DNA of 49,249 bases from Candidatus Omnitrophota bacterium. GTDB taxonomy: Bacteria > Omnitrophota > Gorgyraeia > JABMRG01. The notes beneath the pieces were generated by a model. That model ran no database searches. It saw nothing but the letters and a program-made list of their open reading frames with translations, and was not told the origin of the DNA. Each line of letters starts with the position of its first letter. The stretch's first letter is position 1. Below, in pieces: positions 25,170 to 46,540 of the stretch. The translations under genes were made by a program, and so were the position numbers. The stretch lies in assembly GCA_028716165.1 (NCBI GenBank), contig JAQUQI010000009.1:1-49249 (forward strand), in the 5' to 3' direction.

Positions 25170-25566
25170 AAGGCATATCAAGCTGGAGAGGACACTAAAG
25201 ACCATAGATATCGCCCCGTTAATAGATGTCGTGTTCTTGCTTTTGATATTTTTTATGCTGACGTCCAGTTTTATATTCCAGCCCGGTATAAAGGTTAACC
25301 TGCCGCGCGCGATAACATCGGAGATGTTAAGCGAAGACAATGCCGTTATTAATATTACATCCGAAAACCTTATTTATTACAATCAAAAGCTGGTTACATT
25401 AAGAGAGCTTAATTCGCTGCTAAAGGATGTGGCTTCTTCCAGGCTGTCTGTTCTCATAAGGTCAGACAGGAGGGCTTCCTTAGGCAGGATAGTTGAGGTT
25501 TGGGACATGTGCAGACAGGAGGGCATCAGGCAGGTTAATATCGCCACAACCCAAACCGCAAATTAG
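25159..25566 (+). CDS. exbD: ExbD/TolR-family protein
   Basis: Single-span partner of ExbB/TolQ. The 135-residue protein has the conserved proton-path Asp D23 in APLIDVVFLLLIFFML (membrane segment about 17-38), then a periplasmic domain with the expected VNLP and VLIRSDRRASLGRIVEV segments. The start lies inside the end of exbB. Confidence 0.92.
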   Translation: MKFKRHIKLERTLKTIDIAPLIDVVFLLLIFFMLTSSFIFQPGIKVNLPRAITSEMLSEDNAVINITSENLIYYNQKLVTLRELNSLLKDVASSRLSVLIRSDRRASLGRIVEVWDMCRQEGIRQVNIATTQTAN

Positions 25567-25581
25567 AGGTTTATTTTTTAT

Positions 25582-26283
25582 ATGGATGTTAAAATAAATA
25601 TTTTCCGCGCCTTCGCGCTGTCGTTTCTCTGGCATTTGTTGTGTTTTTTTATGGTCACTATCATAATTACGCCCGTTGGCATCAGCAGTAAGAAGCTCTC
25701 GGACGTATATTTTATCGGCTCATTCGTTGATAAAGGTTCAGCCGGACGCGGATTAAAGGAGATGGACGGGTTTTCCGGTATACCGAGGCCCCTGCCGGCC
25801 GCCAGGCCAAATTATGATTCCGATATTAAGGATATCCAGCCTGCCCGACTTGCCGGAGGTGATAACTTTATAGGCAGAAAAAGGCATTATGATTTTAAAC
25901 CCGGACAGAACGTAAGCACGCAAGACTCAGGCGGTGAAAGTAAAGGGCATGATTCCAGGCCGAGGCCTTATATCATTATGTCCGATCTCTTAGGCAGGCC
26001 AGTTTCGCCTGATATTATCTTCATGCCGGATCTGGGCGCTCTTATCGGGGAATTGTCCAGGTCGTCGGGCAGTTTTGGCACAATATCGTTTTACGAGGCT
26101 GATATACTTTTATCAATAGATCGTGACGGACGCATAGAATCAGCCGGTATAATTAAAAGTGCCGGCCCTCCCGCTCTGGACGTGATAATTACCGGTTATA
26201 TAAAAGAGTGCAGGTTTAAGGCTTCCGGCGATTCCGTAAGCGGCCGGGAGGAACTGACTATTCGCGTAAAACTTGTCTTATAA
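25582..26283 (+). CDS. TonB-like protein
   Basis: A 233-residue protein with an N-terminal membrane anchor (about 9-32), a Gly/Pro/Lys-containing linker, and a C-terminal domain from about residue 165 (ISFYEADILLSIDRDGRIESAGIIKSAG...) with the strand order and D-G-x-(I/V) turn of TonB C-terminal domains. It lacks the long proline-rich region of classic TonB. Its position 15 nt after exbD makes it the likely third subunit. Similarity is visible but weak. Confidence 0.7.
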   Translation: MDVKINIFRAFALSFLWHLLCFFMVTIIITPVGISSKKLSDVYFIGSFVDKGSAGRGLKEMDGFSGIPRPLPAARPNYDSDIKDIQPARLAGGDNFIGRKRHYDFKPGQNVSTQDSGGESKGHDSRPRPYIIMSDLLGRPVSPDIIFMPDLGALIGELSRSSGSFGTISFYEADILLSIDRDGRIESAGIIKSAGPPALDVIITGYIKECRFKASGDSVSGREELTIRVKLVL

Positions 26284-27719: not shown

Positions 27720-28874
27720 ATGAAGCCCATTAGATTGTTTTTATTACTCAATACGGTTTTGATCCTGGCCCAGGCTGCGCCCTGTGGCGCTGGCATCTTT
27801 TCTGAACAAGCCCGGGATACGGACAGGCGCCAGGAAGCGCTTTATTATAATAAGCTTGATAATGGCAGCATCCTATGCGCTTTATGCCCGCGCGGGTGCG
27901 TGATAAACGAAGGCAAGAGAGGTTTTTGCCGTGTCAGGCAGAATACCGGCGGTACTCTTTACAGCTTAGTCTATGCCAGGCCATGCGCTGTCCACGTTGA
28001 TCCGATTGAAAAAAAACCGTTATTTCATGTCTTGCCCGGAGCGAAGTCTTTTTCTATAGCGACCGCGGGATGCAACCTGTCATGCGGGTTTTGCCAGAAT
28101 TGGCACATATCCCAGGTAAGCCCTGAAGATATAAGGTCTGATTATATTGAACCAGCGGAGATAGTACGTTTAGCTATTTCTTCCAATGCGCCGGTCATTG
28201 CTTACACGTATACTGAACCCACGGTTTTTTATGAATATATGCTAAACACGGCAATGATTGCCAAAGAGGCTGGTATTTTGAACGTCATGCATTCATCGGG
28301 CTTTATAAATGAAGCCCCGTTGAGGAGGTTATGCAAATACCTTGACGCGGCGAATATTGATCTTAAGGGTAGTGAAAAGTTTTATCTTGACCTTTGCCAG
28401 GGCAGGCGCGAAGATGTCCTGCGAAGCTTGAAGATACTTAGGGAGGAAGGGGTATGGGTTGAGATAACCTATCTGTTGATACCGACTTTAAATGACAGCG
28501 ATGAATATATAAAACAGACATGCCGGTGGATAAAGGAAAATCTCGGAGTTGATACGCCTTTGCATATATCCAGGTTCTGGCCTATGCATAAAATAAGAAA
28601 TCTGCCTCCCACGCCAATGGAGTCGCTTTATAAAGCTTATGATATAGCCCGTGCCGCGGGCCTGCGTTATGTGTATATCGGAAATGTTTTGGGTGTAAGC
28701 GAACAATCCACGTTTTGTCCGTTTTGCCGCGGTTTATTGATACAAAGGTCCGGTTACGATATCGCAGGTAACAATATAGTTGACGGGAAATGCAAATTTT
28801 GCAAGAATGTCATTGCCGGTCTATGGCAGTCCGGGCCCAAAGGCGGAAAGAAGGGTGAAGCCAGTGCGCTTTAA
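27720..28874 (+). CDS. amrS: AmmeMemoRadiSam radical SAM enzyme with signal peptide
   Basis: Radical SAM protein of the AmmeMemoRadiSam set, whose chemistry is not settled. The 384-residue protein has an N-terminal Cys cluster (C53, C56, C60, C70 in CALCPRGC...RGFC), the HVDPIEKKPLFHVLPG segment, the radical SAM motif C118-x3-C122-x2-C125 (CNLSCGFCQNW) and a C-terminal zinc-ribbon-like CPFC...CKFC. Unusually, about 38 residues precede the normal start, beginning MKPIRLFLLLNTVLIL, which reads as a Sec signal peptide or anchor. There is no twin-arginine motif and no lipobox. It is followed by the overlapping MEMO-AMMECR1 gene. Confidence 0.88.
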   Translation: MKPIRLFLLLNTVLILAQAAPCGAGIFSEQARDTDRRQEALYYNKLDNGSILCALCPRGCVINEGKRGFCRVRQNTGGTLYSLVYARPCAVHVDPIEKKPLFHVLPGAKSFSIATAGCNLSCGFCQNWHISQVSPEDIRSDYIEPAEIVRLAISSNAPVIAYTYTEPTVFYEYMLNTAMIAKEAGILNVMHSSGFINEAPLRRLCKYLDAANIDLKGSEKFYLDLCQGRREDVLRSLKILREEGVWVEITYLLIPTLNDSDEYIKQTCRWIKENLGVDTPLHISRFWPMHKIRNLPPTPMESLYKAYDIARAAGLRYVYIGNVLGVSEQSTFCPFCRGLLIQRSGYDIAGNNIVDGKCKFCKNVIAGLWQSGPKGGKKGEASAL

Positions 28875-30384
28875 AAGGTTGGTTTTTTTAAACGTTATTT
28901 TTTTGTCTCTCATACTGTTGCCAAACGCCGTCTCTTATGCGCAGAGCGTTCAGGCATCGTCTCTTGACGGCACATTTTATCCCAAAGATAAGGACGAGCT
29001 TGAGAGCATGTTAGAGAGGTTTTTTAGCTCTGCCTTTGTACCGGAGATAAAATCGGAAATCATAGCCGTTATCGTCCCGCACGCCGGATATGTATATTCC
29101 GGCGAGGTCGCCTCTTGCGCGTTTAAGGCGCTGATTGACAAAGGATATAATACGGTTGTCGTGCTGGGCATAAGCCACAGACATTATTTTAAAGGTGTTT
29201 CTGTTCTTGATAAAGACGCCTATATTACGCCGCTTGGCAGTTGTCAAATAGACAGAGATTTTTCGCAAAAGCTTATCGGATTTGATGAAGGCATATATTT
29301 TCTTGAAAAACCATTTAATGGAGAAAATTCCATAGAGACCCAGATACCTTTTATACAATACGCCCTGCCCAAAGCCAGGATAGCGGCTGTTCTTATCGGC
29401 GACAGCTCTTACCAGACATGCCTGCTTTTACAAAAAGCTCTCTGCGAAGCGATAGGCAGAAGAAAGGACGTGGTAATTGTTATAAGCACGGACATGTCGC
29501 ATTTTTTACCGGATAAAAAGGCGCGCGCAATAGACAGCCTGGTGATATCCAGGCTTGAGGCGTTTGACCCGCAAACGCTTTATTCATTTCTTTTTAATAT
29601 GAACGATACTAACAGGCCGTGCGGTTCATCGGCTATAGTCTCCGGCATGTTAACGGCATCGGAATTAGGCGCGGGCGTGGTGAATATACTCCGATACGCT
29701 AATTCGGGGCAGGTATCAGGCGATTATGACTCGGTTGTAGGTTATGTGTCGGCCGTTATATTAAGGGCAAAAGAGCAATCAAACGGCAAAATGCAGGATA
29801 ACGAAGAGGGGTATGCCATGGAAGGATTTTTGAACTTGTCACAGAAGAAGCGTTTACTCCAGATTGCCAGAAGCTCAATAAAGGATTATATAGAGGGTGC
29901 TGGCAGTAAAAAATTGCCCGAAGATGAAGACAAAGTGCTTAACAGCCAGATGGGGGCCTTTGTCAGCCTGCATAAGGCAGGCAGGCTTAGGGGTTGCATA
30001 GGTAATATTGAAGGCAGGGGCCGATTATGCCAGACCGTGGCTGATATGGCTGTCCAGTCTGCCGTAGGGGACCCGAGATTTAATCCGGTTACGGCGGATG
30101 AATTGGATGATATTGATATAGAGATATCAGTTCTTTCCCCGCTTAAAAGGATTAATGACCCTGATGAGATTATCATGGGAAAGCATGGCGTCCTGGTCAG
30201 GGATGGCTTCAGGACAGGCGTATATCTGCCTCAAGTTGCCGTTGAGACAGGATGGAGCAGAGAGCAGTTTATGCGTTCACTATGTTCCCAGAAGGCGGGC
30301 ATTCATCCGGACGCGTGGAAGACGGGCGCCTGCCAGATTTATGTTTTTACGGCCGAGGTTTTTGGAGAGAAGGAAAACAATTAA
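28864..30384 (+). CDS. exported MEMO-AMMECR1 fusion (AmmeMemoRadiSam proteins B and A)
   Basis: A 506-residue two-domain protein. After a signal peptide (about 1-26, ending in SYAQ) comes a MEMO domain: DGTFYP, IVPHAGYVYSG, GISHRHYF, NGENSIETQIPF, DMSHFL and CGSSAI, which hold its metal-site His and Cys residues. The AMMECR1 domain follows from about residue 320, with LRGCIGNIEGRG and the AVGDPRF and GWSREQFM segments. GTG 28864 (AAGGG eight bases upstream) or GTG 28855 are the likely starts; both overlap the upstream gene. Both fusion and export are visible in the sequence; the substrate is unknown. Confidence 0.88.
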   Translation: MRFKRLVFLNVIFLSLILLPNAVSYAQSVQASSLDGTFYPKDKDELESMLERFFSSAFVPEIKSEIIAVIVPHAGYVYSGEVASCAFKALIDKGYNTVVVLGISHRHYFKGVSVLDKDAYITPLGSCQIDRDFSQKLIGFDEGIYFLEKPFNGENSIETQIPFIQYALPKARIAAVLIGDSSYQTCLLLQKALCEAIGRRKDVVIVISTDMSHFLPDKKARAIDSLVISRLEAFDPQTLYSFLFNMNDTNRPCGSSAIVSGMLTASELGAGVVNILRYANSGQVSGDYDSVVGYVSAVILRAKEQSNGKMQDNEEGYAMEGFLNLSQKKRLLQIARSSIKDYIEGAGSKKLPEDEDKVLNSQMGAFVSLHKAGRLRGCIGNIEGRGRLCQTVADMAVQSAVGDPRFNPVTADELDDIDIEISVLSPLKRINDPDEIIMGKHGVLVRDGFRTGVYLPQVAVETGWSREQFMRSLCSQKAGIHPDAWKTGACQIYVFTAEVFGEKENN

Positions 30385-33335: not shown

Positions 33336-35036
33336 ATGAAAAAGAAAGATGTGAAATTAGGCCAGATGCTTTTAAACGACGGGATCATTACTAGTGAACA
33401 GCTGGATGCGGCCCTCATAGAGCATAAAAAAACAGGCCAGCTTATAGGCGATGTGATTGTCGCTTTAGGTTTTGCTACCGACGAACAGGTGCTTTTGGCT
33501 CTTTCCCATCAGATAGGCGTATTGTATATAAGGCTTAAGGAATTTGATATCAGCCCGGGAATTATTGAAAAGGTCTCTGCCAAATTCGCCTGCTATTATA
33601 AGATAATGCCTGTAGACATGTCCGGCCGCAGGCTGCGCATAGCAGTGACAAACCCGCTTGACCTTGCCGTTCTTGACGAGATACGATTGGTCCTTAAGTG
33701 CGACTTAGACCCCGTGCTCGCGGGGGAAAAAGATATCCTTGACGCGATCAAAAAATATTATGGCGTGGGCGCTGATACAATAGATAAAATAATAGGCAAG
33801 GCTTACACGCAGGATGACGTTCCGACCCAGGCGGAGCAATCCGGCAATATTGATGATATCGCCGACGACGCTTCAATTATAAAATTCGTAAACCAGCTCT
33901 TGCAGCAGGCTGTTTCCGAGAGGGCCACCGATATCCATATAGAGCCTTTTGAAGGCGAGCTTAGGATACGTTACCGCGTTGACGGTATCCTTTCCAGCGC
34001 GAATATACCGCCTAATATTAAATACCTGTACCAGGCCATAGTCTCGCGCATCAAGATAATGTCGGCCTTGAATATCGCTGAAAGGCGCCTGCCGCAGGAC
34101 GGCAGAATAAAGATTAACGTTGCCAATACAGATCTTGACCTAAGGGTTTCCGTGATACCGACATCATACGGGGAGAGTGTTCATATAAGGATACTAAGCG
34201 CTAATGTTCTTCTCGGCCTTGAAAGCCTCGGCCTGCTTAAAGACGATCTTGATGTGGTTGATAAAATGATAAAAAAACCTCACGGTATATTGTTTGTAAC
34301 AGGGCCTACCGGCAGCGGCAAGACAACGACTCTATACGCGTGCCTGAACAGGGTAAATGACGAGGGCAAAAACATAATTACAATTGAAGATCCTATTGAA
34401 TATCAGTTGAGAGGCATTACGCAGATACAGGTTAATACCAAGGTGGGCCTTACCTTCGCCGCGGGGCTAAGGTCCATGTTAAGGCATGATCCGGACATCA
34501 TGATGGTTGGAGAGGTAAGAGACCTTGAAACCGCAGAGATAGCTATAAGGGTGGCCCTTACCGGACATCTCGTCTTTTCAACACTGCATACCAATGATTC
34601 CACGGGGGCGGTCACAAGGCTTCTTGACATGGGTATTGAACCTTACCTTGTTTCAAGTTCCATTGAGGCTGTTATCGCGCAGAGGCTTGTCAGGGTGATA
34701 TGCGATAAATGCAGGAGAGAGATTTTACCTGATGAAGGGCTGATAAAGGAATTAAATCTTGATACGCCCGGCAGTATAAAATTCTATGAAGGCAAGGGAT
34801 GCCCTTTTTGTAAGTTTACCGGATTCATGGGCAGGACGGCCATATATGAAATACTTGTCCTGGATGATGAAATAAGAGAACTTATTGTCAGAAGGGTGCC
34901 GTCTAACGAGATCAAGGCGCTGGCATTGAAAAAAGGCATGAGGACACTATTTAATGACGGCATGATTAAAGTAGGCCGCGGCATTACTACCATTAAAGAG
35001 GTCTTGCGTGTCACTGAAATTGAAGCGGAAGAGTAG
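33336..35036 (+). CDS. gspE: type II secretion ATPase GspE
   Basis: Cytoplasmic hexameric ATPase driving pseudopilus assembly. The 566-residue protein starts with an MshEN-type N-terminal domain (KLGQMLLNDGIIT, about 6-150). The ATPase domain follows, with Walker A GPTGSGKTTT, the Asp box and Walker B in MMVGEVRDLETAEIA, the His box TGHLVFSTLHTND and a zinc module CDKC...CPFC. PilB of type IV pili looks similar; the downstream gspG-K set decides for T2SS. Confidence 0.93.
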   Translation: MKKKDVKLGQMLLNDGIITSEQLDAALIEHKKTGQLIGDVIVALGFATDEQVLLALSHQIGVLYIRLKEFDISPGIIEKVSAKFACYYKIMPVDMSGRRLRIAVTNPLDLAVLDEIRLVLKCDLDPVLAGEKDILDAIKKYYGVGADTIDKIIGKAYTQDDVPTQAEQSGNIDDIADDASIIKFVNQLLQQAVSERATDIHIEPFEGELRIRYRVDGILSSANIPPNIKYLYQAIVSRIKIMSALNIAERRLPQDGRIKINVANTDLDLRVSVIPTSYGESVHIRILSANVLLGLESLGLLKDDLDVVDKMIKKPHGILFVTGPTGSGKTTTLYACLNRVNDEGKNIITIEDPIEYQLRGITQIQVNTKVGLTFAAGLRSMLRHDPDIMMVGEVRDLETAEIAIRVALTGHLVFSTLHTNDSTGAVTRLLDMGIEPYLVSSSIEAVIAQRLVRVICDKCRREILPDEGLIKELNLDTPGSIKFYEGKGCPFCKFTGFMGRTAIYEILVLDDEIRELIVRRVPSNEIKALALKKGMRTLFNDGMIKVGRGITTIKEVLRVTEIEAEE

Positions 35037-35038
35037 GC

Positions 35039-36256
35039 ATGCCGAAATTTGTTTATGAGGCAAAGTCCAGTCCCGTTGAAGTCAGGAAGGGTTTTATTGA
35101 AGCCGAGAATGCCTCGCAGGCCGCTTTAAAACTGGCGAAAATGGGGCTTTTTGTATTATCAATAGAGGAAGAAACAGCCGACTTTGTTAAAAGGTCCAAG
35201 ATCGGGTTTTTTTCTTTCAGCCCTTCACCCGCGCGTTCTTTAAGCTATTTTACAAGGCAGCTTTCAAGCCTGCTGGATTCAGGCCTTACTATAATCAAGG
35301 CCTTGAGCGTGCTTGAAGAGCAAACTGAAAATATTAGTTTGCGCCATATTATAAGCGGGATCAGGGCCGACATAAAGAACGGTTCCACGTTTTCATCGGC
35401 CCTGTTGAAATACCCTAAGGTTTTTTCAGACCTGTATATTAATATGGTTTCTTCAGGCGAGGCAAGCGGTAATCTTGAGCATGTCCTTGAACGTTTAAGC
35501 GGATTTTTGGAAAAAGACGAAGAGAATATATCCAAGATTAAATCGGCCATGGCATATCCTGCCTTAATGGCTGTGGTTGGTTGCGCGACCATATTTGTTT
35601 TACTGACATTTGTCGCCCCAAGGCTTACCGGGATTTTTAATGATCTTGGACAGGCCCTGCCGCTTCCGACAAAGATGCTTATATGGGTTAGTTCGTTTTT
35701 CGCGACGTTTTGGCCCGTGATTATTTTTGGCTTTATTTTTGGCGCTTTTACCTTTAATAGATGGTCCAGGACGCCGGAAGGCAAGGCTGTAATGGATGGA
35801 TTAAAGGTAAAAACCCCCGCTATACGCGTATTTGTTCAAAAAGTGGAGATATCAAGATTTTCCAGGACATTAGCAACGCTGATAGGTAACGGTGTGCCGG
35901 TGATCAGGGCATTGTCAATAGCCTCCGGGACCATAGATAATATTCCAATGAGGCAGGATATAGAGCAGGCCAGGAGGGATGTTGAGGAAGGCCAGACCCT
36001 ATCGGCCGCGATAAGAAAAAGCAGATACTTTCCTGCGGCAGTTACCAATATGATTGCAATAGGTGAAGAGGGCGGCACGCTTGAAAAGTCTCTGTCCAAG
36101 ATAGCGGATTCTTATGATTCCGAGACCGACCGGGCCGTCAAGATGATCATGTCTTTGCTTGAGCCGGGACTTATCCTCTTTATGGGGATTATTGTCGGCT
36201 TTATCGTTATTTCAATGCTATTGCCCATATTCCAGTTGAATCTTATGATAAGATAG
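35039..36256 (+). CDS. gspF: type II secretion inner-membrane protein GspF
   Basis: Polytopic platform protein of the T2SS. The 405-residue protein has the internal repeat of two T2SSF domains: FTRQLSSLLDSGLTIIKAL and ISRFSRTLATLIGNGVPVIRAL, each followed by a G-E-x-(S/G)-G-x-L segment (SSGEASGNLE, AIGEEGGTLE). Three membrane segments are visible. It starts 2 nt after the gspE stop. Confidence 0.94.
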   Translation: MPKFVYEAKSSPVEVRKGFIEAENASQAALKLAKMGLFVLSIEEETADFVKRSKIGFFSFSPSPARSLSYFTRQLSSLLDSGLTIIKALSVLEEQTENISLRHIISGIRADIKNGSTFSSALLKYPKVFSDLYINMVSSGEASGNLEHVLERLSGFLEKDEENISKIKSAMAYPALMAVVGCATIFVLLTFVAPRLTGIFNDLGQALPLPTKMLIWVSSFFATFWPVIIFGFIFGAFTFNRWSRTPEGKAVMDGLKVKTPAIRVFVQKVEISRFSRTLATLIGNGVPVIRALSIASGTIDNIPMRQDIEQARRDVEEGQTLSAAIRKSRYFPAAVTNMIAIGEEGGTLEKSLSKIADSYDSETDRAVKMIMSLLEPGLILFMGIIVGFIVISMLLPIFQLNLMIR

Positions 36257-36307
36257 GTTGGTATTACCGGTATAGTGTTAACTGAATGAAAATCGGAGGA
36301 TAGACAG

Positions 36308-37312
36308 GTGAGAATAAGCCAAATAGCAAAACAGGCCAACGTATCATCTATGATTGTTTCAAGGGTGATGCACGGTTCGCCGAACGTCAAGCCGCAGGAT
36401 AGAAAAAGGGTCCAGGATGCTGTCAAAAGTCTGAAGCTCAACGCCTTTGTGGGGTCCGGTATAAGAAAGAAGTCGGGCAAGGTTTTTGGGCTGATAGTCC
36501 CAAGGTTTGAGGATATATTCCATTCATTTTATGCCACCGAGATTATAAAAGGCGTTGTCCTTGCCGCCAGCAGGCTTAAAATTGACGTTATGATTCATAT
36601 AAGCGACAGCAAGAATCACGAGGATTGGCTTACAAGCAACGCCTTGAGCCCGGATTATATAGACGGTATATTGTTCGCCGACATAAACAGCGATAAAAGC
36701 CAGCTTCGGAAGGTGCTTGCCAGAAAAACGCCGTGTATGGTATTAAATAATTCGTTTGAAAAAGAGGACATTAATTCCATTGCTATTGATAATGAGCATG
36801 CCGCGATAGCGGCCACGGAATATCTTTTCCGGTTAGGGCATAGAAACATTGCCACTATCGCGGGCGAGCTCTCAACAGAGTCGGGCAGGATGAGGCTTGA
36901 AGGGTTTAAATCATTTATGAAATTACATAATTTAAGATTGAGCCCAAGGTATATTACCGTCGGACATTATTTACGCTCGCCTGCCAGAAAGGCGGCCGAA
37001 GCCCTGATAGCTCTTACCGAGCGGCCTACCGCCATATTCTGCGCCAGCGACGTAATGGCTATGGAGGCGATAGATGTTATCAAGCGCAAAGGCCTAAGGG
37101 TGCCTGAAGATATATCCATAGTTGGTTTTGATGATAATCCCCTGTGCGCTTATTCGCCTGTGCCCCTTACTACGGTTTGGCAGCCTATTGTTGAAATGGG
37201 CAGGTTAGGCGTGGAACTTCTTTACCAGATTGTGACAGGTGTAAAAAAACAGCCTGTCAAGACGCTGTTAAAGACTAAACTTATAGAGCGCGCTTCATGC
37301 GCCAAGATATAA
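36308..37312 (+). CDS. LacI-family transcriptional regulator
   Basis: A 334-residue regulator with an N-terminal helix-turn-helix and hinge (ISQIAKQANVSSMIVSRVMHGSPNVK) and a full periplasmic-binding-type sensor domain (GLIVPRF..., DGILFADI, FRLGHRNIA, RPTAIFCASDVMAMEAI, ISIVGFDDNP). GTG 36308 is supported by GGAGGA at 36295-36300. Members usually bind a sugar and repress genes for its use. Here it lies between gspF and gspG, in the same direction, which suggests control of secretion by a sugar signal. The effector cannot be read from the sequence. Confidence 0.9.
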   Translation: MRISQIAKQANVSSMIVSRVMHGSPNVKPQDRKRVQDAVKSLKLNAFVGSGIRKKSGKVFGLIVPRFEDIFHSFYATEIIKGVVLAASRLKIDVMIHISDSKNHEDWLTSNALSPDYIDGILFADINSDKSQLRKVLARKTPCMVLNNSFEKEDINSIAIDNEHAAIAATEYLFRLGHRNIATIAGELSTESGRMRLEGFKSFMKLHNLRLSPRYITVGHYLRSPARKAAEALIALTERPTAIFCASDVMAMEAIDVIKRKGLRVPEDISIVGFDDNPLCAYSPVPLTTVWQPIVEMGRLGVELLYQIVTGVKKQPVKTLLKTKLIERASCAKI

Positions 37313-37330
37313 ATACCCGGGGAGAGGCAT

Positions 37331-37759
37331 ATGAAGAATAAGGCGTTTACACTTATAGAATTGATGCTCGTGGTTATAATCATAAGCGTTCTTGTGGCTA
37401 TGGTAGTCCCCAGGCTTGTGGGCAGGTCTCAACAGGCAAGGGCCGCGGCAGCGCAGGCGCAGATAGAGGCGCATTTGGCCACCGCCCTGGACCTCTATGA
37501 GCTTGATAACGGCATGTACCCTGTTACCGAGCAGGGTATAGACGCGTTGATATATAAACCGTCTTCCGCGCCTGTGCCGCCCAATTGGAAAGGGCCATAT
37601 ATAAAAAAGACGCCTCTTGACCCGTGGGGCAACCCCTATATTTATGTGTGTCCGGGTATACATAATACAGGCGATTATGACCTGTCTTCGCACGGGCCAG
37701 ACGGTATTGAAAGCGCTGATGACATCATTAATTGGCAATCCCCAAAAGAGTCAGCCTGA
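37331..37759 (+). CDS. gspG: major pseudopilin GspG
   Basis: Main subunit of the T2SS pseudopilus. The 142-residue prepilin has a five-residue leader, predicted cleavage between A5 and F6 of FTLIELMLVV, Glu at mature position 5, and the C-terminal DPWGNPYIY and SSHGPDGIES-DDI blocks that bind calcium in GspG. The -1 residue is Ala rather than the usual Gly. GGGGAGAGG precedes the ATG. Confidence 0.95.
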   Translation: MKNKAFTLIELMLVVIIISVLVAMVVPRLVGRSQQARAAAAQAQIEAHLATALDLYELDNGMYPVTEQGIDALIYKPSSAPVPPNWKGPYIKKTPLDPWGNPYIYVCPGIHNTGDYDLSSHGPDGIESADDIINWQSPKESA

Positions 37760-38225
37760 TCCGGCCCCTGCCATAAGAGCTTTTACCCTTATTGAGCTGG
37801 CGCTTGTTACCGTGATCATGCTTATTATGATCTCATTATCAACGCCTATCTTTAGCAGGACATATGACGACTTAAGTATTTTTTCGTGCGCGAGAGCGGT
37901 ATCTCAAATGATTTATCTGGCCCGCCAGCGGTCTATTTTTGAAAGAAAATATTACAGAATCGTTTTTGACATTGGCAGTAATACCTGCCAGATAATGGCA
38001 GGACTGCCAGACGGCAGTTATGAGGATTTGCCTGAGAGGTGGGGCAGGATATTTCGCGCGCCTTCCGGTTTGGATATCCATGCTGATAGAGAATATGTAG
38101 ATTTTTCACCCGGCGGCTTCTGCGACCCCGCGGTTATAAATATCGTCAACAAAAAGAATAAATGTCTTTCGGTAAAACTGGATCATATTACCGGTACGGT
38201 GGATATCCATGAGAAGAAAGAATAG
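37719..38225 (+). CDS. gspH: minor pseudopilin GspH-like
   Basis: A 168-residue prepilin from ATG 37719, which overlaps the gspG end by 41 nt. The leader of about 21 residues ends in Ala, followed by FTLIELALVTVIMLI. The variable C-terminal part (R-x-Y-Y-R-I-V-F, CQIMAG, FSPGG, TG-VDI) fits GspH/FimT. Starts further upstream overlap gspG deeply and are unlikely. gspI begins inside its last 17 bases. Confidence 0.78.
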   Translation: MTSLIGNPQKSQPDPAPAIRAFTLIELALVTVIMLIMISLSTPIFSRTYDDLSIFSCARAVSQMIYLARQRSIFERKYYRIVFDIGSNTCQIMAGLPDGSYEDLPERWGRIFRAPSGLDIHADREYVDFSPGGFCDPAVINIVNKKNKCLSVKLDHITGTVDIHEKKE

Positions 38226-38628
38226 GGCTTTTTTGCTGATAGAAACTCTGATTGCCGTCGCGCTTGTATCGTCTTCTGTTATACTCATAAATCACGCCTT
38301 TTCCTCTTCATTGAAGGCTGTATCGCTGGCAAACAGCTATTATGAAGCAGCCATGTTTTTAGACGAGAGAATATTTGACATGGATTTAAAACTCTACACG
38401 CAGGACTCTCTGGATATCGAGCAGGAAGAAGTGTTTTTACAGACGGCATTTATATTCCGCAGCCAGGTTATGGCGCTTGAAAAAGATGATTTAGATTATG
38501 GCCATAGCGCGCAGGATACTGCTATAAAAAGGTTATGCTGTGAATTGGACTGGTCAAAGGACGGCGACAGAAGAATTGGGCTTGTTTCTTATGTCCCCGC
38601 CGAAGGCGGCGAGGGATTCTCTTACTGA
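38209..38628 (+). CDS. gspI: minor pseudopilin GspI-like
   Basis: A 139-residue prepilin with a short leader and predicted cleavage after Ala in KNRA-FLLIETLIAVALV. The Glu at mature position 5 is kept. The remainder is poorly conserved; the assignment to GspI comes from its place between gspH and gspJ and the small size. An 89-nt gap to gspJ holds nothing recognisable. Confidence 0.75.
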   Translation: MRRKNRAFLLIETLIAVALVSSSVILINHAFSSSLKAVSLANSYYEAAMFLDERIFDMDLKLYTQDSLDIEQEEVFLQTAFIFRSQVMALEKDDLDYGHSAQDTAIKRLCCELDWSKDGDRRIGLVSYVPAEGGEGFSY

Positions 38629-38717
38629 TACTGTCGTGTTTGCCGCAATAGTACCCGGCGGCCTGTCCTTGAATTTATACCGCGCAATGCAAAATCAGTG
38701 AAGGCGGGCATTGTTTT

Positions 38718-39416
38718 ATGAAAAAGGCCTTAAAAGGTTTTACGCTTATTGAACTATTAATATCGGTTTCCATTTTTTCGTTGATTGCGGTTGTCATGTA
38801 CGCTTGTTTTGGTTCAGGCATAACTGCTTATAAACGCATATTGCAAGAGGCCGCTTTTGGGCAGAAATTGAGATTTGCCCTGTCTGTGATAGATAAGGAT
38901 TTCAGAAATGCCTGTTTTTCAAAAAGTATTGATTTCAGAGGAGATGAAAAGAGGCTGTCGTTGGCAAGCCTGGCTGATGACGGCGGCGGAACCAACTTTG
39001 GTGTGGCCAGGATCAGCTATGGTGTTGAAGGTTCAGGCAATGAGTTCTCGCTTGTAAGAAGAATAGAGCCTTTACGGCAGGCCGCCTCCGCTGTCCTGGC
39101 TGAAAAAATTTCCGGCAAAGAAGCCTTAGGCGGCAGGCAGGATGGCTACGAAGTACTCTTGGACAGTATTCTGGATATAAAATTCTCGTATCTTTATTTG
39201 AATGAGGGGCAAGCTTCCGCCGATAGCGCGGGAAATCCTAATGATGGACGTTCGTCGTACGAATGGGTTGCATTGTGGCAGGAGGATGCCCTGCCTATTG
39301 CCGTAAGCATGGAGATTGTTTATCTAAATCCCAATAGTCTTAAAACGCACAAGATTATTAAGCGTGTAAAGGTGCCTGTGGCAGGGCCTTTGCATTCAGG
39401 CATAGTGGAGGTTTAA
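38718..39416 (+). CDS. gspJ: minor pseudopilin GspJ-like
   Basis: A 232-residue prepilin with cleavage after Gly in KALKG-FTLIELLISVSIFSLI and the large C-terminal domain of GspJ (RFALSVIDKDFRNA, later YEVLLDSILDIKFSYL). GspJ, GspI and GspK form the pseudopilus tip. gspK starts at the next base after its stop. Confidence 0.85.
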   Translation: MKKALKGFTLIELLISVSIFSLIAVVMYACFGSGITAYKRILQEAAFGQKLRFALSVIDKDFRNACFSKSIDFRGDEKRLSLASLADDGGGTNFGVARISYGVEGSGNEFSLVRRIEPLRQAASAVLAEKISGKEALGGRQDGYEVLLDSILDIKFSYLYLNEGQASADSAGNPNDGRSSYEWVALWQEDALPIAVSMEIVYLNPNSLKTHKIIKRVKVPVAGPLHSGIVEV

Positions 39417-40526
39417 TTGTCCCAGCCAAACGATAAAGGCGTAATACTCATAACATCCCTGTGGATAGTGGCCATACTTTCCCTGTTTGCCGTTACTGTA
39501 GGCAGACAGGCTTCAATCTCATTGAAATTGGCATCTTATGAAACAGATAAACGCAAGGCGTTTTTTACGGCGCGTGCCGGTATCATGCGCGCGCTGGCGG
39601 AAAAAAGAATGGAATATGTTTTGGGCATGTCAGCCGGCATAGATGCTTTAAGCCAGGCTTGGGCGAATAATGAATCTCTTTTTCGCGCTCATGCCTTTGG
39701 CCCCGGGTATTATACTGTTAGTTACGAATATCCAGGACTTGACGCGGATGGGAAAAAACCAGCCACCCTTTATGGCCTGATGGATGAGCAGTCAAAGATA
39801 AACATAAACACCGCTGTTGAAGATACCTTGCGCGGACTGTTCATGTCTTTTATCGTTGATGAAGAAAAGGCCTTGTCTCTGGCAGGTTCTATAATAGATT
39901 GGAGGGACGCGGACAGCATAACCGCTTCATCCGAGAAAGGCCTGCTGTATGGAGCGGAAAACGAGTATTATACCGGGCTTAATCCGCCGTATGAGTGTAA
40001 AAACGCGGCATTTGACAGCATATATGAGCTTCTGCTTGTAAGAGGCATGGACGATAAAATATTTCGTATGATAAAGCCGTATATAACCGTTTACGGAAAC
40101 GGGATGGTAAACATCAATACGGCAGGCGAGAGGGTGCTGTCAGCTTTAATAGGAGAGGATTTCCCGGAGCTCGCCTCCAAAATAAACCGTTATAGGCAGG
40201 GTGAAGACGGCATAATCGGCACAAAGGACGATGCCTGGTTCGGTTTTGGCCCGGAGGTAGTGGATAGGCGGGAAGATGGATTGGTTGAAATTAAGAATTT
40301 ACAAGACCCTGACTGGTATGCTAATATTTATAGCATAACAACGGATGAGTATAATCGTATAAGAGAATTATTGTCTATCGGCGCCGCGCAGATATGCGTC
40401 GCCTCTGACGTTTATCGCGTCAGTGCCGTAGCGGATGTTGACGGCGTGAAATCACGCCTTGAGGCCGTTTATATGTTTTCGGATAAAAAGAATTTTCCAA
40501 CAGCTGTATTTTGGTATCAGGAGTAG
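39417..40526 (+). CDS. gspK: pseudopilin-tip protein GspK
   Basis: Large minor pseudopilin capping the T2SS pseudopilus. The 369-residue protein has a class III-type leader ending in KG followed by VILITSLWIVAILSLFAVTVG; as usual for GspK, mature position 5 is not Glu. Two helix-hairpin-helix-like segments occur (KININTA, VNINTA), with IIDWRDADS between them. TTG 39417 directly follows the gspJ stop and has GGAGG at 39407-39411. Confidence 0.9.
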   Translation: MSQPNDKGVILITSLWIVAILSLFAVTVGRQASISLKLASYETDKRKAFFTARAGIMRALAEKRMEYVLGMSAGIDALSQAWANNESLFRAHAFGPGYYTVSYEYPGLDADGKKPATLYGLMDEQSKININTAVEDTLRGLFMSFIVDEEKALSLAGSIIDWRDADSITASSEKGLLYGAENEYYTGLNPPYECKNAAFDSIYELLLVRGMDDKIFRMIKPYITVYGNGMVNINTAGERVLSALIGEDFPELASKINRYRQGEDGIIGTKDDAWFGFGPEVVDRREDGLVEIKNLQDPDWYANIYSITTDEYNRIRELLSIGAAQICVASDVYRVSAVADVDGVKSRLEAVYMFSDKKNFPTAVFWYQE

Positions 40527-40530
40527 CGCA

Positions 40531-42006
40531 TTGAGACTAATGTCTTTCTTCCACGCGAATAATAACCTCTTTGTCCAGGCTGATGAGAAATATCTCAAAC
40601 TTGCCCAGTTTTCCTCAACCGGCAAGGCCTGCCAGGCCATGCGGCTTATCGTAAAACCGGTATCGGGACTCTCTGAAGCGGATATGCCGCGCGCTTTTGC
40701 CGAAGCCGTTGCCTCAAGCGCCATCAATTTTAACTGCATAACAGCCGTTATCCCAAGACAGAAAGTTATAACAAGGCACATCAAACTACCCGCTGTTAAC
40801 AGGGTTGAAATTGATAAGATGCTGTCGTTTGAGATTGCCAAACAGACGCCTTATTCGCAGGAGGATATAATATCCGACTACAGAATAATTGGAACAGACG
40901 AACAGGGCTATTCAAGGATATTACTGGTAATATCCTTGAAATCAGAACTGACGAGGATTGATTCCCTGTTGGGCGCGTATTCATCAAGGCTTAAACAGGT
41001 CTATTTCAGTTCAGAAGCTGATGCGGGCTGGCTTGATAAGGCGGGCCTTGGCCCCGGGGCGGAAGAGAGTACCTGCCTTGTAAATGTTGACGCGGACAGG
41101 ACCGAGATAGCGGTTGTTTCGTCTTCCGGCCTTTGCTTCAGCAGGTCAATTACCCTGGGAGCTGATGACCTGCTGGGCCCTAAAACAACCGCCGTAACAC
41201 CCCAGGCCAGACTGCTTGATGAAATAAAACAGTCCATGGCCTTATGCCTTAAAGAAAAGGAAGGCCAGGGCAATGGAATTACGAAAATTATTCTTACGGG
41301 TGCCGCTGTTGCCGGCGAGGTTTTTCTGGATTGCCTGAAAGCGGACATCAACATCTCCTCGTCGTATTTTAATTCATTATATGGTGTACGGTTATCTGAT
41401 AATGCTTTAAGCGAATCCGGCATACCTGAAAATGCCTCGGTCTGTTCTGTATGCGGAGCGGCCTGTATGGGTTTTGGCATCAATCTGATGCCGCAATCGC
41501 GCAAACAGATAAACAGGAAGAGGTCTTTATTCAAAAAACTTGTCGCAGGGTTTTCTCTTTTGTTTTTTGCCTGCGTGGTTTTTTTTACCGTTTATTTTGT
41601 AAGGATCGACCGGATGGAAAGGACGCTGGAAGACCTTGAAGCATTGTACAGCCGGATTGACAAGACGTCCGATCTTTTAGAGATTAAGCTCAAAAGACTG
41701 CAAGGTATAAAATCATACCTGGCCCAGGGTGAATCCTCCCTTGACGTAATATATAATCTTTACTATTTGATCCCTGAAGGCATATCTTTAGCCGATTTTG
41801 ACTATGAAGACGAATCAAAGATACTGCGCTTCAGCGGTAAGGCATCAAAAATGTCGGATGTTTTCGGCCTCGTTTCTTTAATGGAGTCTTCGGAGGTATT
41901 CAGTAATGTCCAGACAGGCTCGGTAATACAGAGGCAGACAAAAGATGGCGTGTCGGTTGATTTTCAGTTGAGATGCAATTTTAAGGCAGTGCCGGAACGC
42001 GAATAA
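40531..42006 (+). CDS. gspL: T2SS platform protein GspL / PilM-PilN-like
   Basis: A 491-residue protein combining an actin-like cytoplasmic PilM/GspL domain (SFEIAKQTPYSQEDIISDY, NVDADRTEIAVV), one membrane span (about residues 335-358) and a PilN-like periplasmic domain. It recruits GspE to the membrane. TTG 40531 follows CAGGAG at 40518-40523; a nearby ATG at 40540 is possible. The longer frame overlaps gspK and is rejected. Confidence 0.85.
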   Translation: MRLMSFFHANNNLFVQADEKYLKLAQFSSTGKACQAMRLIVKPVSGLSEADMPRAFAEAVASSAINFNCITAVIPRQKVITRHIKLPAVNRVEIDKMLSFEIAKQTPYSQEDIISDYRIIGTDEQGYSRILLVISLKSELTRIDSLLGAYSSRLKQVYFSSEADAGWLDKAGLGPGAEESTCLVNVDADRTEIAVVSSSGLCFSRSITLGADDLLGPKTTAVTPQARLLDEIKQSMALCLKEKEGQGNGITKIILTGAAVAGEVFLDCLKADINISSSYFNSLYGVRLSDNALSESGIPENASVCSVCGAACMGFGINLMPQSRKQINRKRSLFKKLVAGFSLLFFACVVFFTVYFVRIDRMERTLEDLEALYSRIDKTSDLLEIKLKRLQGIKSYLAQGESSLDVIYNLYYLIPEGISLADFDYEDESKILRFSGKASKMSDVFGLVSLMESSEVFSNVQTGSVIQRQTKDGVSVDFQLRCNFKAVPERE

Positions 42007-42038: not shown

Positions 42039-42572
42039 ATGCTAAAAAAGCTTTCATCACGGGAAAAATACATATTGGCCGCGGTGATATTCGTGATACT
42101 GCTGTCATTGCTATATACTGTATTGATAGAGCCGATGATGGCGCGCAGACGTGATATGAACAACAGGATCGGAATTGTTAAGGCGAAACTTCGCAAATCC
42201 CTCGCCCTGATGAAAGATAAGTCCGGCATAGAACAGGAATACGATCATTTTACAAGCCGGCTGAAACAGGCTGTTAACGATGAACAGGTTGTTACCGTTG
42301 TCCTTGATGAGCTTGAAAAAGCTGCCCAGAGAACAGGGGTAAGCATAACAAGCATGCGGCCCAAACCTGCCAAGCAAAAGCAGTATTTCAGGCAGTTTGA
42401 AGTAGAGGTAGAAACGGAATCGGACATGGCAGGCTTAATGAAGTTTATTTTTGAGATCAAAAATTCCCCCCAGCTTATCAAGATAGACAAATTAAACCTT
42501 AATACAAAAGGCGGCCAGCAGGCTGTATTAATCAGGGCTTTTATGCTTGTTTCAAAGATATCCATTGGATAA
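42039..42572 (+). CDS. gspM: T2SS platform protein GspM / PilO-like
   Basis: A 177-residue bitopic protein: a short cytoplasmic part, a membrane span (about 11-30), a coiled-coil-like stretch (MARRRDMNNRIGIVKAKL onward), then a ferredoxin-like domain. Position after gspL and this layout fit GspM or PilO. It is the last gene of unit 1. A 10-bp perfect hairpin (42558-42567 with 42596-42605) spans its stop codon. Confidence 0.78.
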   Translation: MLKKLSSREKYILAAVIFVILLSLLYTVLIEPMMARRRDMNNRIGIVKAKLRKSLALMKDKSGIEQEYDHFTSRLKQAVNDEQVVTVVLDELEKAAQRTGVSITSMRPKPAKQKQYFRQFEVEVETESDMAGLMKFIFEIKNSPQLIKIDKLNLNTKGGQQAVLIRAFMLVSKISIG

Positions 42573-42712: not shown

Positions 42713-42797
42713 TACAAGTAGGGAGAAGGTGGGCTCTCTGCTTGTAAATATTGGTAATTTGTGTAATATCCAGCTCACTGCTGGATTTTTTATTTTT
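42713..42797 (+). promoter_or_regulatory. attenuator-like leader before merR-like-gspA-gspC-gspD
   Basis: Hairpin 1 pairs 42713-42725 with 42734-42746 (13 bp including wobbles, 8-nt loop AAGGTGGG). Hairpin 2 is a classic intrinsic terminator: ATCCAGC 42768-42774, loop TCACT, GCTGGAT 42780-42786, then T-rich to 42797, only 12 nt before the ATG at 42810. GGTGGGCT (42728-42735) can pair with AGCTCACT (42772-42779), which would break the terminator stem or form a kissing loop. This layout fits regulated termination such as a riboswitch or protein-controlled attenuator. No known riboswitch consensus is recognised. Confidence 0.65.
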
Positions 42798-42809
42798 GAG
42801 GAAAATATT

Positions 42810-43052
42810 ATGCCGAATATATATTTGCTTAAGGACCTTTCGCATGTAACAGGACATTCTGTAGACACCCTAAAGTTCTACCTTAAAATAGGGCTCATAA
42901 AAGAAATCGCCAGAGGCCCGGAGACGAATTTTAGATTTTTTGACGATACAACGGTAAACTCGCTTAAGGATATACGAGAACTTAGAAAAAACGGAGTGCC
43001 TTTAAGCAAGATAAAGGACAATATCCCAAGGTACAAAAAGAGGCAGGGATGA
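42810..43052 (+). CDS. small MerR-like DNA-binding protein
   Basis: An 80-residue protein consisting of only the MerR-type winged helix (LKDLSHVTGHSVDTLKFYLKIGLI, then NFRFFDDTTVNSLKDIRELRKNGVPLSKI). No effector domain or dimer coiled coil follows, so it is a stand-alone HTH. ATG 42810 has GAGG at 42798-42801; upstream starts would lie inside the terminator leader. It overlaps gspA by 4 nt (ATGA), so it is translated with the T2SS genes and may control them. Confidence 0.8.
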   Translation: MPNIYLLKDLSHVTGHSVDTLKFYLKIGLIKEIARGPETNFRFFDDTTVNSLKDIRELRKNGVPLSKIKDNIPRYKKRQG

Positions 43053-43867
43053 GTTATTACGAAGCGTTAAATCTCAAATCAGAACCTTTTTCAACGAGCC
43101 CTGACCCGTATTTTTTTTATCCGTCTTCTTCGCATGATTCAGCCCTTAAAAGGCTTGAGATTGCCATAAGGCTGCGCAGAGGGCTTAATGTCATCTTAGG
43201 AGATGTGGGAACAGGCAAGACCACGTTAAGCAGGATGCTTATCCAGCTGTTCAAGGATGAGCCTGATTTTATTTTTCACATGATTCTTGACCCGAGTTAT
43301 AAAACGGAGTTCCAGTTTCTTTCAAGCCTTGCCAAGATGTTTGGGGTAAACCCCGCTTTTCGCTCAACGCTTGATTACAAAGACGCCCTTGAAAAATACC
43401 TGTTTCAAAAAGGTGTTGACGAAAAAAAGACCATCGTTCTTCTTATAGATGAAGGTCAGAAACTTACCCCCAGCCAGGTGGAGATTTTAAGGACATTGCT
43501 AAATTATGAGACGAACGAATTCAAGCTGTTACAGCTGGTTATATTGTCACAGATTGAGCTTTTGCCCAAGATACGCAGGATAAGAAATTTCATGGACAGG
43601 ATAAATTTAAAATATATTATTAATCCTCTGGACGAGTCCGAGACACGCGCCCTCATCCACTTCAGGCTGAAACAGGCGGGTTATGATGCCTCGGGCCAGG
43701 AGTTGTTTACCGACAGCGCCATAAGGCATATATATGAATATACACAGGGTTATCCGAGAAAGATTTCAATGTTTTGCCATGACGCCCTTGAGGTATTGAT
43801 CATGCGTAATAAAAAGTTTGTTGACCAGGATATAATAGAAGAAATAATGACGCGTGAGGTACGGTAG
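43049..43867 (+). CDS. gspA: ExeA/GspA-type AAA ATPase
   Basis: A 272-residue AAA ATPase starting MSYYEALNLKSEPFSTSPDP-FFY, the standard opening of the ExeA/GspA group. Walker A is GDVGTGKTTLS, Walker B VLLIDEGQ, with a sensor-type segment and YTQGYPRKIS near the end. In known systems GspA with GspB helps place the secretin through peptidoglycan. The peptidoglycan-binding C-terminus of full-length ExeA is absent here, so this is the short form. Confidence 0.88.
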   Translation: MSYYEALNLKSEPFSTSPDPYFFYPSSSHDSALKRLEIAIRLRRGLNVILGDVGTGKTTLSRMLIQLFKDEPDFIFHMILDPSYKTEFQFLSSLAKMFGVNPAFRSTLDYKDALEKYLFQKGVDEKKTIVLLIDEGQKLTPSQVEILRTLLNYETNEFKLLQLVILSQIELLPKIRRIRNFMDRINLKYIINPLDESETRALIHFRLKQAGYDASGQELFTDSAIRHIYEYTQGYPRKISMFCHDALEVLIMRNKKFVDQDIIEEIMTREVR

Positions 43868-43868
43868 C

Positions 43869-44642
43869 ATGGATAGAGAGATTTCGCCGGAAGAAAGGCT
43901 TTTGCGTTTGATAAAAGGCAAAAATCGGCCGCTATCAGCAGAGAGGGCCAATATCCAAACCGCGGCAGGCGAGACGGGCCAGCCGATACCGGCATCTGTC
44001 CCGGCCGCTTCTTCTGGCAGATCAGGCGCCGTTTTAAAGCCAGACGGGCAAAAGATGCCGCTTCTTAAAGCAAAAGTTTCCGGCGCTGCGGATAGTATGC
44101 CAAAGGTCAAAATGCCGGCGGGCTTTAATCCTTATTATTTGATTGCCGGTTTTTTTGTTCTTTTACTGATTGCGGGATTATATTTTTTAATAAGTGCCTC
44201 CGGCACTAAAGAAGACCAGGATGTGGCTAATCTCAAACAGCTGGTCGCGGTTATATCAAGCCAGGCCCCCGCGGAAAATGCGCAGGCAAAACCCGCCCAG
44301 AATATTACCAGTGAAGCTCAAGGCTCTGGTGCCACAGGCAGAGGCTCATTTGATGATTATCAAAAACTTATCGGCAATAAAGCCGTATTCGTGCCGGCAG
44401 CGGTTGAAAAGAAGAAAACGCAGGCACAGGAACCCGCAAAACTGAACGAACTTTTAAAGGACCTCAAACTGGTCGGCGTGATTCCCGGAGACGTGCCGCA
44501 GGCCATTATTGAAGATAAAAAGAACAACCAGACGCTTTTTCTAAGAGAAGGAGAACTGGTTAACGGTATAGAGATAAAGAGCGTATCTGCCGGCAGGGTT
44601 GTCTTAAATTACGGTGAAGAAACCATGACCCTGTCACTATGA
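43869..44642 (+). CDS. GspC/GspB-like inner-membrane T2SS protein
   Basis: A 257-residue bitopic protein: basic cytoplasmic N-terminus, low-complexity Ala/Pro region, membrane span at about 89-109, Gln/Ala-rich periplasmic linker, and a C-terminal domain from about 192 (LKLVGVI-GDVPQAIIEDKKNN...LREGELVNGIEIKSV...VVLNYGEE). That domain resembles the GspC homology region and the related GspB and PilP folds that touch the secretin. Position after gspA suggests GspB, the HR-like pattern suggests GspC. ATG 43869 has GAGGT at 43856-43860. It overlaps the longer gspD frame but not the preferred gspD start. Confidence 0.7.
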   Translation: MDREISPEERLLRLIKGKNRPLSAERANIQTAAGETGQPIPASVPAASSGRSGAVLKPDGQKMPLLKAKVSGAADSMPKVKMPAGFNPYYLIAGFFVLLLIAGLYFLISASGTKEDQDVANLKQLVAVISSQAPAENAQAKPAQNITSEAQGSGATGRGSFDDYQKLIGNKAVFVPAAVEKKKTQAQEPAKLNELLKDLKLVGVIPGDVPQAIIEDKKNNQTLFLREGELVNGIEIKSVSAGRVVLNYGEETMTLSL

Positions 44643-44659: not shown

Positions 44660-46540
44660 ATGAAGGCGTTATTGACATTATTTTTGGCATTTATAATATG
44701 TATTAATCCGTGTAGAACTGCTTATGCGCAGAACTTCGGCCGTCCCCAGGACCAGCCGGAAGAAAAACTATCTCTTGACATCAAAGGTATGGATATACTG
44801 GACGTTTTCAGGTTATTATCCATGAAGGGCGGGATTAATATTATAGCAGGCAAAAATGTCACCGGCAAGGTCACGCTCTTTCTAAAAGGGGTTGATATAT
44901 GGGATGCGTTTGAAATAATAATAGCAGCCAATGGGTTAGCGTATGAGAATCGCAATAATATCATATACGTGATGACCGAACGCGATTATGAGCTTATGTA
45001 CGGAAAGAAGTACGAAGACAGGAGGATAGTCAAATCCGTAAAATTGCATAATGTTACGGCGGCAGAGGTGCTCAAATCAGTATCACAGCTTAAGACTAAT
45101 ATAGGCAAGGTTGTCTCTGACGATGTCTCGGAAACAATAGTCCTTATGGATATACCTGAAACTGTGGCTGAAATGGAAAACGTCATAGAGGTCCTTGACG
45201 TGCCCCTTACGACAAAGGTTTATAATCTCCAGTACGCCAAGGCCAATGATCTCAAGGATAGGCTTAGCGAGATATTAACCAAGAATACGGGTAGTATCCA
45301 TATTGACGAGCGCACAAACAAAATAGCGGTGACTGACCTCAAAAACCAGATACCTGTTTTTGATAAGCTGATAGAGGCCTTTGATGAAAAGCATAAAGAG
45401 GTCATCATTGAAGCCAAGGTTTTGCAGATTACATTAAATGACGACTATAATACCGGTATAAACTGGGACGCGGTCTTTACAAAGATGCAGAGTAAACTGC
45501 ACCAGGTTGCCACCCTCGGTGTAAGCTTAAGATACGGCGACCAGCAACAGGTCATACCCACTGTCGCGACCACGGCCAACGGCGGGGCCCTGCAGATAGG
45601 TAATCTCGCCACCGAGGGTTATCAGGCTGTTATACAGGCATTAAGGGAGTATGGTAAGACCAACCTTCTTTCATCACCCCGTATTGTGGCGTTAAATAAC
45701 GAAGAAGCCAGCATACTTGTGGGGACGAACCAGCCGTATGCTACCCGCACCATTAGCCAGGGAAGCGGTGGTACGGGCAATATAGAAGCTGAAAACGTGA
45801 CATTTATAGACCTTGGAATAAAGCTAATAGTAACGCCTACAATTAACGATGAAAATTACATTACAATGAAGATCAAGCCCGAAGTAAGCTCCAAGATAGG
45901 GGATTTCCAGATTACCAGCAGCGGTAATGTAATACCTATTGTAAAGACAACCACTACGGAAACGACCGTGATGGTCAAGAACGGCTCAACGGTCCTTATC
46001 GGCGGGCTCATGGAAGAGAATATAAGGGAAAGCCTAAGAGAGGTTCCGGGGCTTGCTAATATTCCTCTGCTTGGCAATTTGTTCAGGACAAGGACGATCG
46101 GCAGCGGCGATAGCACTAATCCCGAAAAGACGGAGCTTGTCATATTTCTTACCCCCCATATTATATCAGGGTATGAAGCCAATGATCTGCTTACTGTAAA
46201 CAAGGTCGCGCAGGAAAAGGCCGTAGACAATATTAGCGCGCGCCGCGGCATGACTAATGATATGGATGCCGATGAATATTACGGCCTCATAGCTTCAATA
46301 ATCAATAAGAAGGTTGAACAAGAGAAGCCTGGCGAGAGCCTGCACGGAGAGGTTTTTATATCTTTTGAAATCAATTCCAAGGGCGAGCTTGTTTCCAAAC
46401 CGGTTATATCAAAAGGGGATAACCCGGGGTTATCGCAATTAGGCATAAAAAGCGTAACGGAAGCGGCCCCTTTTCCGCCTTTCCCAAAGAGGATAACCAG
46501 CGATAAGGAAACACTGCAGATAGCCATAAGTTATCAATAG
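44660..46540 (+). CDS. gspD: secretin GspD with C-terminal TonB-like domain
   Basis: Outer-membrane secretin channel, 626 residues. ATG 44660 follows GAGGGGGG at 44646-44653 and starts a signal peptide (about 1-23, ending in AYAQ). N-domains (LSLDIKGMDILDVFRLLS, VYNLQYAKANDLKDRLSEIL) are followed by the secretin core: LLSSPRIVALNNEEASI, VGTNQPY, NVTFIDLGIKLIVTP and VLIGGLMEENIRES-VPGLANIPLLGNLF, ending TELVIFLTPHIIS. It has fewer N-domains than classical GspD, nearer PilQ. After a linker, residues 563-626 form what reads as a TonB-family C-terminal domain (VFISFEINSKGELV, then AAPFPPFPKR and a last strand). I know of no standard secretin with this tail. Confidence 0.92.
   Translation: MKALLTLFLAFIICINPCRTAYAQNFGRPQDQPEEKLSLDIKGMDILDVFRLLSMKGGINIIAGKNVTGKVTLFLKGVDIWDAFEIIIAANGLAYENRNNIIYVMTERDYELMYGKKYEDRRIVKSVKLHNVTAAEVLKSVSQLKTNIGKVVSDDVSETIVLMDIPETVAEMENVIEVLDVPLTTKVYNLQYAKANDLKDRLSEILTKNTGSIHIDERTNKIAVTDLKNQIPVFDKLIEAFDEKHKEVIIEAKVLQITLNDDYNTGINWDAVFTKMQSKLHQVATLGVSLRYGDQQQVIPTVATTANGGALQIGNLATEGYQAVIQALREYGKTNLLSSPRIVALNNEEASILVGTNQPYATRTISQGSGGTGNIEAENVTFIDLGIKLIVTPTINDENYITMKIKPEVSSKIGDFQITSSGNVIPIVKTTTTETTVMVKNGSTVLIGGLMEENIRESLREVPGLANIPLLGNLFRTRTIGSGDSTNPEKTELVIFLTPHIISGYEANDLLTVNKVAQEKAVDNISARRGMTNDMDADEYYGLIASIINKKVEQEKPGESLHGEVFISFEINSKGELVSKPVISKGDNPGLSQLGIKSVTEAAPFPPFPKRITSDKETLQIAISYQ

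Follow-up and report, generated by a model that had tools for sequence, protein, structure and literature searches.

The type II secretion system (T2SS) secretin encoded in the stretch of Omnitrophota DNA analysed here (the window, 49,249 nucleotides) ends in a domain of the TonB/TolA C-terminal type, and the same join recurs across this little-known phylum, whose members have yet to be cultured. The architecture, sequence family, predicted fold, conservation and common operon of these proteins are described from direct observation, and an early single gain of the domain is suggested by trees. It is proposed, tentatively and at somewhat under an even chance, that a T2SS secretin gained a TonB-type domain early in the phylum and that this domain most likely acts as a passive docking or anchoring module. 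The secretin gene is the last open reading frame (ORF) of a T2SS operon with the following features:

33336-40526, + strand: gspE (33336), gspF (35039), a LacI-type regulator (36308), gspG (37331), gspH (37617), gspI (38209), gspJ (38718) and gspK (39417), named by sequence reading and synteny
40459-42006, + strand: PilM-PilN-like fused protein, the GspL counterpart (PilN, 29.8 bits; PilM_2, 22 bits, below the cut-off)
42039-42572, + strand: GspM/PilO (T2SSM_b, 37.7 bits; PilO, 26.4 bits)
42729-43052, + strand: small MerR-like DNA-binding protein, named by sequence reading
43049-43867, + strand: ExeA/GspA-like AAA ATPase of 272 aa, without the periplasmic peptidoglycan-binding part
43854-44642, + strand: GspC-like inner-membrane protein with an HR-type domain (PF11356 and NCBIfam GspC matches below the cut-off), directly upstream of the secretin
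44660-46540, + strand: gspD-type secretin with a C-terminal TonB-like domain (626 aa; 633 aa from the upstream ATG at 44639)
46169-46264, + strand: linker from the secretin core to the tail domain (GYEANDLLTVNKVAQEKAVDNISARRGMTNDM; ~30 residues), variable in length and sequence among relatives and of low pLDDT
46265-46537, + strand: TonB/TolA-type C-terminal domain (residues 536-626, 91 aa), with a helix, two strands, a helix, AAPFPPFP and the last strand TLQIAISYQ

The reading frame is open from 44639 or 44660 to 46540, and its product consists of a signal-peptide-like segment, an STN/N0-like domain, Secretin_N domains, the secretin core, the linker and the TonB-like domain. A preliminary description of this DNA had taken the core to be complete and to end at TELVIFLTPHIIS, in agreement with a PF00263 match of 150.8 bits over residues 334-509 of the 633-aa reading; PF00263 and Secretin_N (PF03958, 65 bits) both score above their cut-offs. 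Because it reaches 234 bits against TIGR02517 (GspD), for which the equivalog cut-off is 351, the protein is regarded as GspD-like and outside that equivalog; the PilQ model (TIGR02515) gives 243 bits, below its cut-off of 284. With the GspD/PilQ secretins (TIGR02517, TIGR02515, PF00263) it has in common the core, the Secretin_N and N0-like domains and a gene that comes last in the gsp operon, after gspC. It differs from them in the C-terminal TonB-type domain and in the S-domain, for which Pfam and NCBIfam profile scans of the secretin gave no match, the region being taken up by the linker and the TonB-type domain.

The tail domain starts at about 46265 with DADEYYGLIASIINKKVEQ..., so that the interval first proposed for it (46346-46540, residues 563-626) does lie inside the domain but omits its first helix. 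Its membership of the TonB/TolA type, which the preliminary description had claimed, is settled by three kinds of result. PF13103 (TonB_2) scores 28.0 bits in the whole protein (E 2.4e-6) and 33.1 bits for the 91-aa domain (E 6e-8), above the curated cut-off of 22; PF03544 (TonB_C, 17-22 bits) and TIGR01352 (16-21 bits) also match the tail but stay below their cut-offs of 24.6 and 27.1. When 35 tails were scanned, matches at E <= 0.01 were obtained for TonB_C in 32, for TIGR01352 in 29 and for TonB_2 in 27, and a profile of the 35 tails searched against all PDB sequences had H. pylori TonB as its top match (E 1.1e-6), with HasB matching weakly (E 0.07). The fold predicted for the tail by AlphaFold2 (three sequences) has the TonB/TolA topology, alpha-beta-beta-alpha-beta (helix 39-56, strands 65-74 and 84-87, helix 91-104, strand 118-127), block pLDDT values across the domain being mostly 79-92. 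In a Foldseek search against the PDB, the first 14 matches are all C-terminal domains of TonB, TolA, HasB or FusB (best E 1.1e-3, probability 1.00). When the full-length protein was modelled with AlphaFold2 (three sequences; mean pLDDT 48), the barrel was unusable, and the tail folded as before, with block pLDDT mostly 82-88. None of the outcomes named beforehand as contrary, namely a tail unlike TonB models, another fold or a match to the S-domain, was encountered.

The sequence profile and fold are thus those of TonB/TolA C-terminal domains (PF03544, PF13103, TIGR01352; PDB 5lw8 and 6sly, H. pylori TonB; 2x9a and 3qdr, TolA). Unlike these, the tail sits on an outer-membrane pore, without inner-membrane helix and long linker, and has a signature proline, a two-residue deletion and altered polar residues. 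The N-terminal inner-membrane helix by which TonB proteins contact ExbB is absent, the domain being fused after a complete secretin. Weak matches to the AgmX/PglI C-terminal domain (NCBIfam NF033768), a family named for other proteins, were found in 3 of the 35 tails; we know of no description of that domain on secretins.

A phylum-wide search of 384 Omnitrophota genomes with the tail profile matched 284 of them and returned two classes of ORFs, one of about 200-290 aa (free TonB) and one of about 600-740 aa. Loci were retrieved for the long class and their secretin frames were then checked for the tail, which is present in 65 frames besides that of the window (66 genomes in all), from 26 family groups and two classes (G008 being in the second class). 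Throughout the 66 genomes the domain is C-terminal and follows a variable linker; in the same-family orthologues L042 and L043, operon and tail are both kept, the domain is 50-56% identical and the linker before it differs in length. Conservation of the join of secretin and TonB-type domain in at least 26 families of the phylum shows it to be genuine and not due to chance, and the tail is probably a docking one. Among the secretin frames examined, 13 have no tail. Untailed secretins are found as paralogues in other operons (two in L044, and in L045, L178, L179 and L183) and also at the same operon position (L173, L176, L181 and others), while those of L175 and L182 end within the linker, as expected of tail loss. 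The two untailed secretins of L044 (L044:5286-9630, genome G000, contig C7) stand in tandem after an exeA and a gspC of their own, and the second, of 947 aa, has a long C-terminal extension.

Like the window's secretin, the tailed secretins are encoded with other gsp genes. Where the contig is long enough, the gene order of tailed loci is gspE-F-G-(H)-I-J-K-pilM-pilO-(merR)-(exeA)-gspC-gspD, and a GspC gene precedes the tailed secretin in 60 of 65 loci. The LacI-type regulator (36308-37312) between gspF and gspG and the MerR-like gene between gspM and exeA are unusual inside such an operon; relatives of the latter occur in 22 of the 65 tailed loci. Relatives of the single ORF that unites PilM-like and PilN-like parts occur in most tailed loci. 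Elsewhere in the window, a radical SAM gene followed by a Memo-AMMECR1 fusion-like ORF (27720-30384) looks, on sequence reading, like a putative AmmeMemoRadiSam set.

The history of the tail was read from two trees. On the tree of secretin cores, eight changes of tail state are needed, and these are best read as one early gain in the phylum followed by several losses. In a tree of 66 tails and 40 free TonBs, 65 of the tails lie on one side of a branch with 100/99 support; phylogenetically, the tails are a clade of their own, distinct from free TonB proteins encoded in the same genomes. The latter (e.g., L038:4551-5318, adjoining a TonB-dependent receptor) are the closest free relatives of the tail, with about 26-33% identity, but they are proteins of 225-260 aa with an N-terminal hydrophobic segment and form a separate clade. 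Tyr, Phe, Gly and PF..FP at positions of the fold core are common to tails and free TonBs. A proline near the second strand, present in 98% of tails, is not among the common residues of free TonBs; the tails do without the two-residue insertion typical of free TonBs and stop directly after the last strand. Polar residues differ as well: an Arg in helix 1 is found in 90% of free TonBs vs. 32% of tails, a Ser in helix 2 in 97 vs. 21% and an Asn in the last strand in 80 vs. 21%, and a last-strand Ser conserved in free TonBs is not conserved in tails. Retention of the core, together with the signature proline and the loss of polar residues, suggests that the tail is under a constraint of its own and that its surface has changed.

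One tail departs from this pattern. That of the G132 secretin (L085:4262-6232) shares 52% identity with free TonBs from its family and has the insertion typical of TonBs; on the core tree, the G132 secretin is placed with two untailed secretins. These three observations (identity, insertion and core tree) make it probable that the tail was lost and a TonB domain then acquired a second time. A single origin of all tails including that of G132 was not rejected by the AU test (p 0.088 with 40 TonBs; 0.53 after adding 27 TonBs of relatives), because the long branch of the main tail group can attach next to the G132 tail. In another genome of the same order (G004), a 201-aa ORF (L076:3586-4191, - strand) begins like a GspG-type pseudopilin (PF07963, 27.8 bits) and continues into the last strand of a secretin with its TonB-like tail, which the tail profile matches at E 1.2e-25. 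Its neighbour is a LacI-type regulator resembling that which immediately precedes gspG in the window, so this ORF seems to be the remnant of an internal deletion of the T2SS operon, and in effect a new TonB-like protein made of a membrane helix and a TonB domain.

As to function, the chain would return to the periplasm after the barrel, at the point occupied by the S-domain in secretins of other bacteria, and the flexible linker would hang the TonB-type domain there in its place. The periplasmic location given in the preliminary description agrees, by analogy, with the periplasmic chain end of solved secretins. Known T2SS secretins have 15 subunits per pore, a stoichiometry from which a ring of about 15 tail domains would be expected under the outer membrane of an assembled pore. 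TonB and TolA domains bind their partners via a strand and a helix surface; the tail would hold the exposed beta-strand or a surface patch of a partner, which may be an inner-membrane platform protein, a lipoprotein, the cell wall or another tail. Such docking would stabilize the pore in the envelope and aid its assembly, a job done elsewhere by the S-domain with its pilotin and by GspA/GspB. The S-domain resembles the tail in its C-terminal place, and it and the GspA/GspB anchors may share a job with the tail, but the folds of both are unrelated to it. Lacking an inner-membrane helix and placed on the outer-membrane side, the tail would not itself be a force transducer like TonB, and docking or anchoring is favoured for that reason. 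The tail is dispensable in some lineages, since same-position secretins exist without it (e.g., L173, L176, L181).

A narrower role, in which the TonB-type domain is a peptidoglycan anchor only and holds the pore in the cell wall in place of GspA/GspB or AMIN domains, is unlikely. Anchoring of secretins by GspA/GspB is documented (PMC9239104), and the GspA-like ATPases of tailed operons (~270-290 aa) are without a periplasmic peptidoglycan-binding part, so the GspA-type anchor is missing from these operons; in addition, TonB C-terminal domains have been proposed to bind peptidoglycan (PMC9022066), although such binding is itself not firmly established for TonB. However, ExeA is just as short in operons without the tail, so that the anchoring idea receives no support from co-occurrence of tail and short GspA, and no peptidoglycan-binding motif was found.

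It is quite unlikely that the domain is an outer-membrane targeting tail, substituting for the S-domain and bound by a lipoprotein that acts as pilotin. The S-domain is the chain that follows the barrel in solved secretins, and pilotins bind it on the periplasmic side (PMC6532946); the tail occupies this very place, and its failure to match the S-domain fits a substitution. Yet a separately folded domain on a linker of variable length is unlike an S-domain packed on the barrel, and no candidate pilotin was seen after the secretin in the window, where RsfS and ArgS genes follow.

Roles that draw on energy were considered with reference to another part of the window:

24537-26283, + strand: ExbB (24537), ExbD (25159) and a marginally TonB-like ORF (25582-26283)

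This module is located upstream of the T2SS operon, some 7 kb from gspE and some 18 kb from the secretin. Together with a TPR protein of 820 aa, the same genes make up a segment (21971-26283) that is possibly a divergent Tol/Ton module. The tie between secretin and module hinted at in the preliminary description did not gain support. The TonB_C similarity of the TonB-like ORF is marginal (16.4 bits), with no Pfam match at E 0.05, and the tail's nearest free relative in the same genome is a TonB adjoining a TonB-dependent receptor on another contig. Further evidence against it is that polar residues conserved in TonBs (helix 1, last strand) are not kept in the tails and that the receptor plug domain was not found in 8 of 52 near-complete tailed genomes. 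On these comparisons, a functional link of the tail to ExbBD or to the in-window TonB is somewhat disfavoured.

The residue and plug observations also weigh on any energy-linked role of the tail through ExbD or TonB, which is judged quite improbable. Of 64 tailed genomes, 62 have ExbD, but this count covers tailed genomes only and nearly all members of the phylum may have ExbD; neither its presence nor that of the plug in tailed genomes discriminates between mechanisms. Dimers of TonB C-terminal domains and ExbD-TonB contacts have been reported (PMC9022066), the tail of G132 differs little from an ordinary TonB domain, and L077 and L140 each have a TonB gene at most a few kilobases from their tailed secretin, although these are only 2 of 65 tailed loci. 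A bolder form is very doubtful. In it, the T2SS pore would be linked to the proton motive force: the secretin's ring of TonB-type domains would pair with TonB or ExbD, and the Ton motor would thereby assemble, gate or clear the secretin. If true, this type II system would receive energy at the outer membrane.

Finally, an annotation or assembly artefact, by which a TonB gene was wrongly joined to a secretin, is ruled out for practical purposes by the intact ORF in 66 separately assembled genomes. Nothing of weight speaks for it, although two MAGs have an in-frame stop within the domain. In these (L121 near 9056, L132 near 4777), a TAA falls in the first helix of the domain, whose remainder is intact downstream, compatible with sequencing error, early decay or readthrough.

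Secretins and TonB domains are both well-known families; what appears to be new is their combination, a T2SS secretin with a repurposed TonB-type domain. Among the papers searched for secretins with a TonB-type domain, none described this combination, its phylum-wide conservation or its operon context, and the text of the main Omnitrophota genome paper mentions neither secretins nor TonB; automatic domain databases may already list the architecture of a secretin with TonB_C or TonB_2. The anchoring, assembly and gating of secretins are hardly known outside proteobacteria, and retention of a TonB-type domain on the pore throughout a phylum would represent a different way of tying the pore to the envelope. 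It also widens the range of uses known for the TonB fold, from the inner-membrane transducer to an outer-membrane pore, and the 91-residue fragment offers a concrete handle for a search for its partner in bacteria that are still uncultured.
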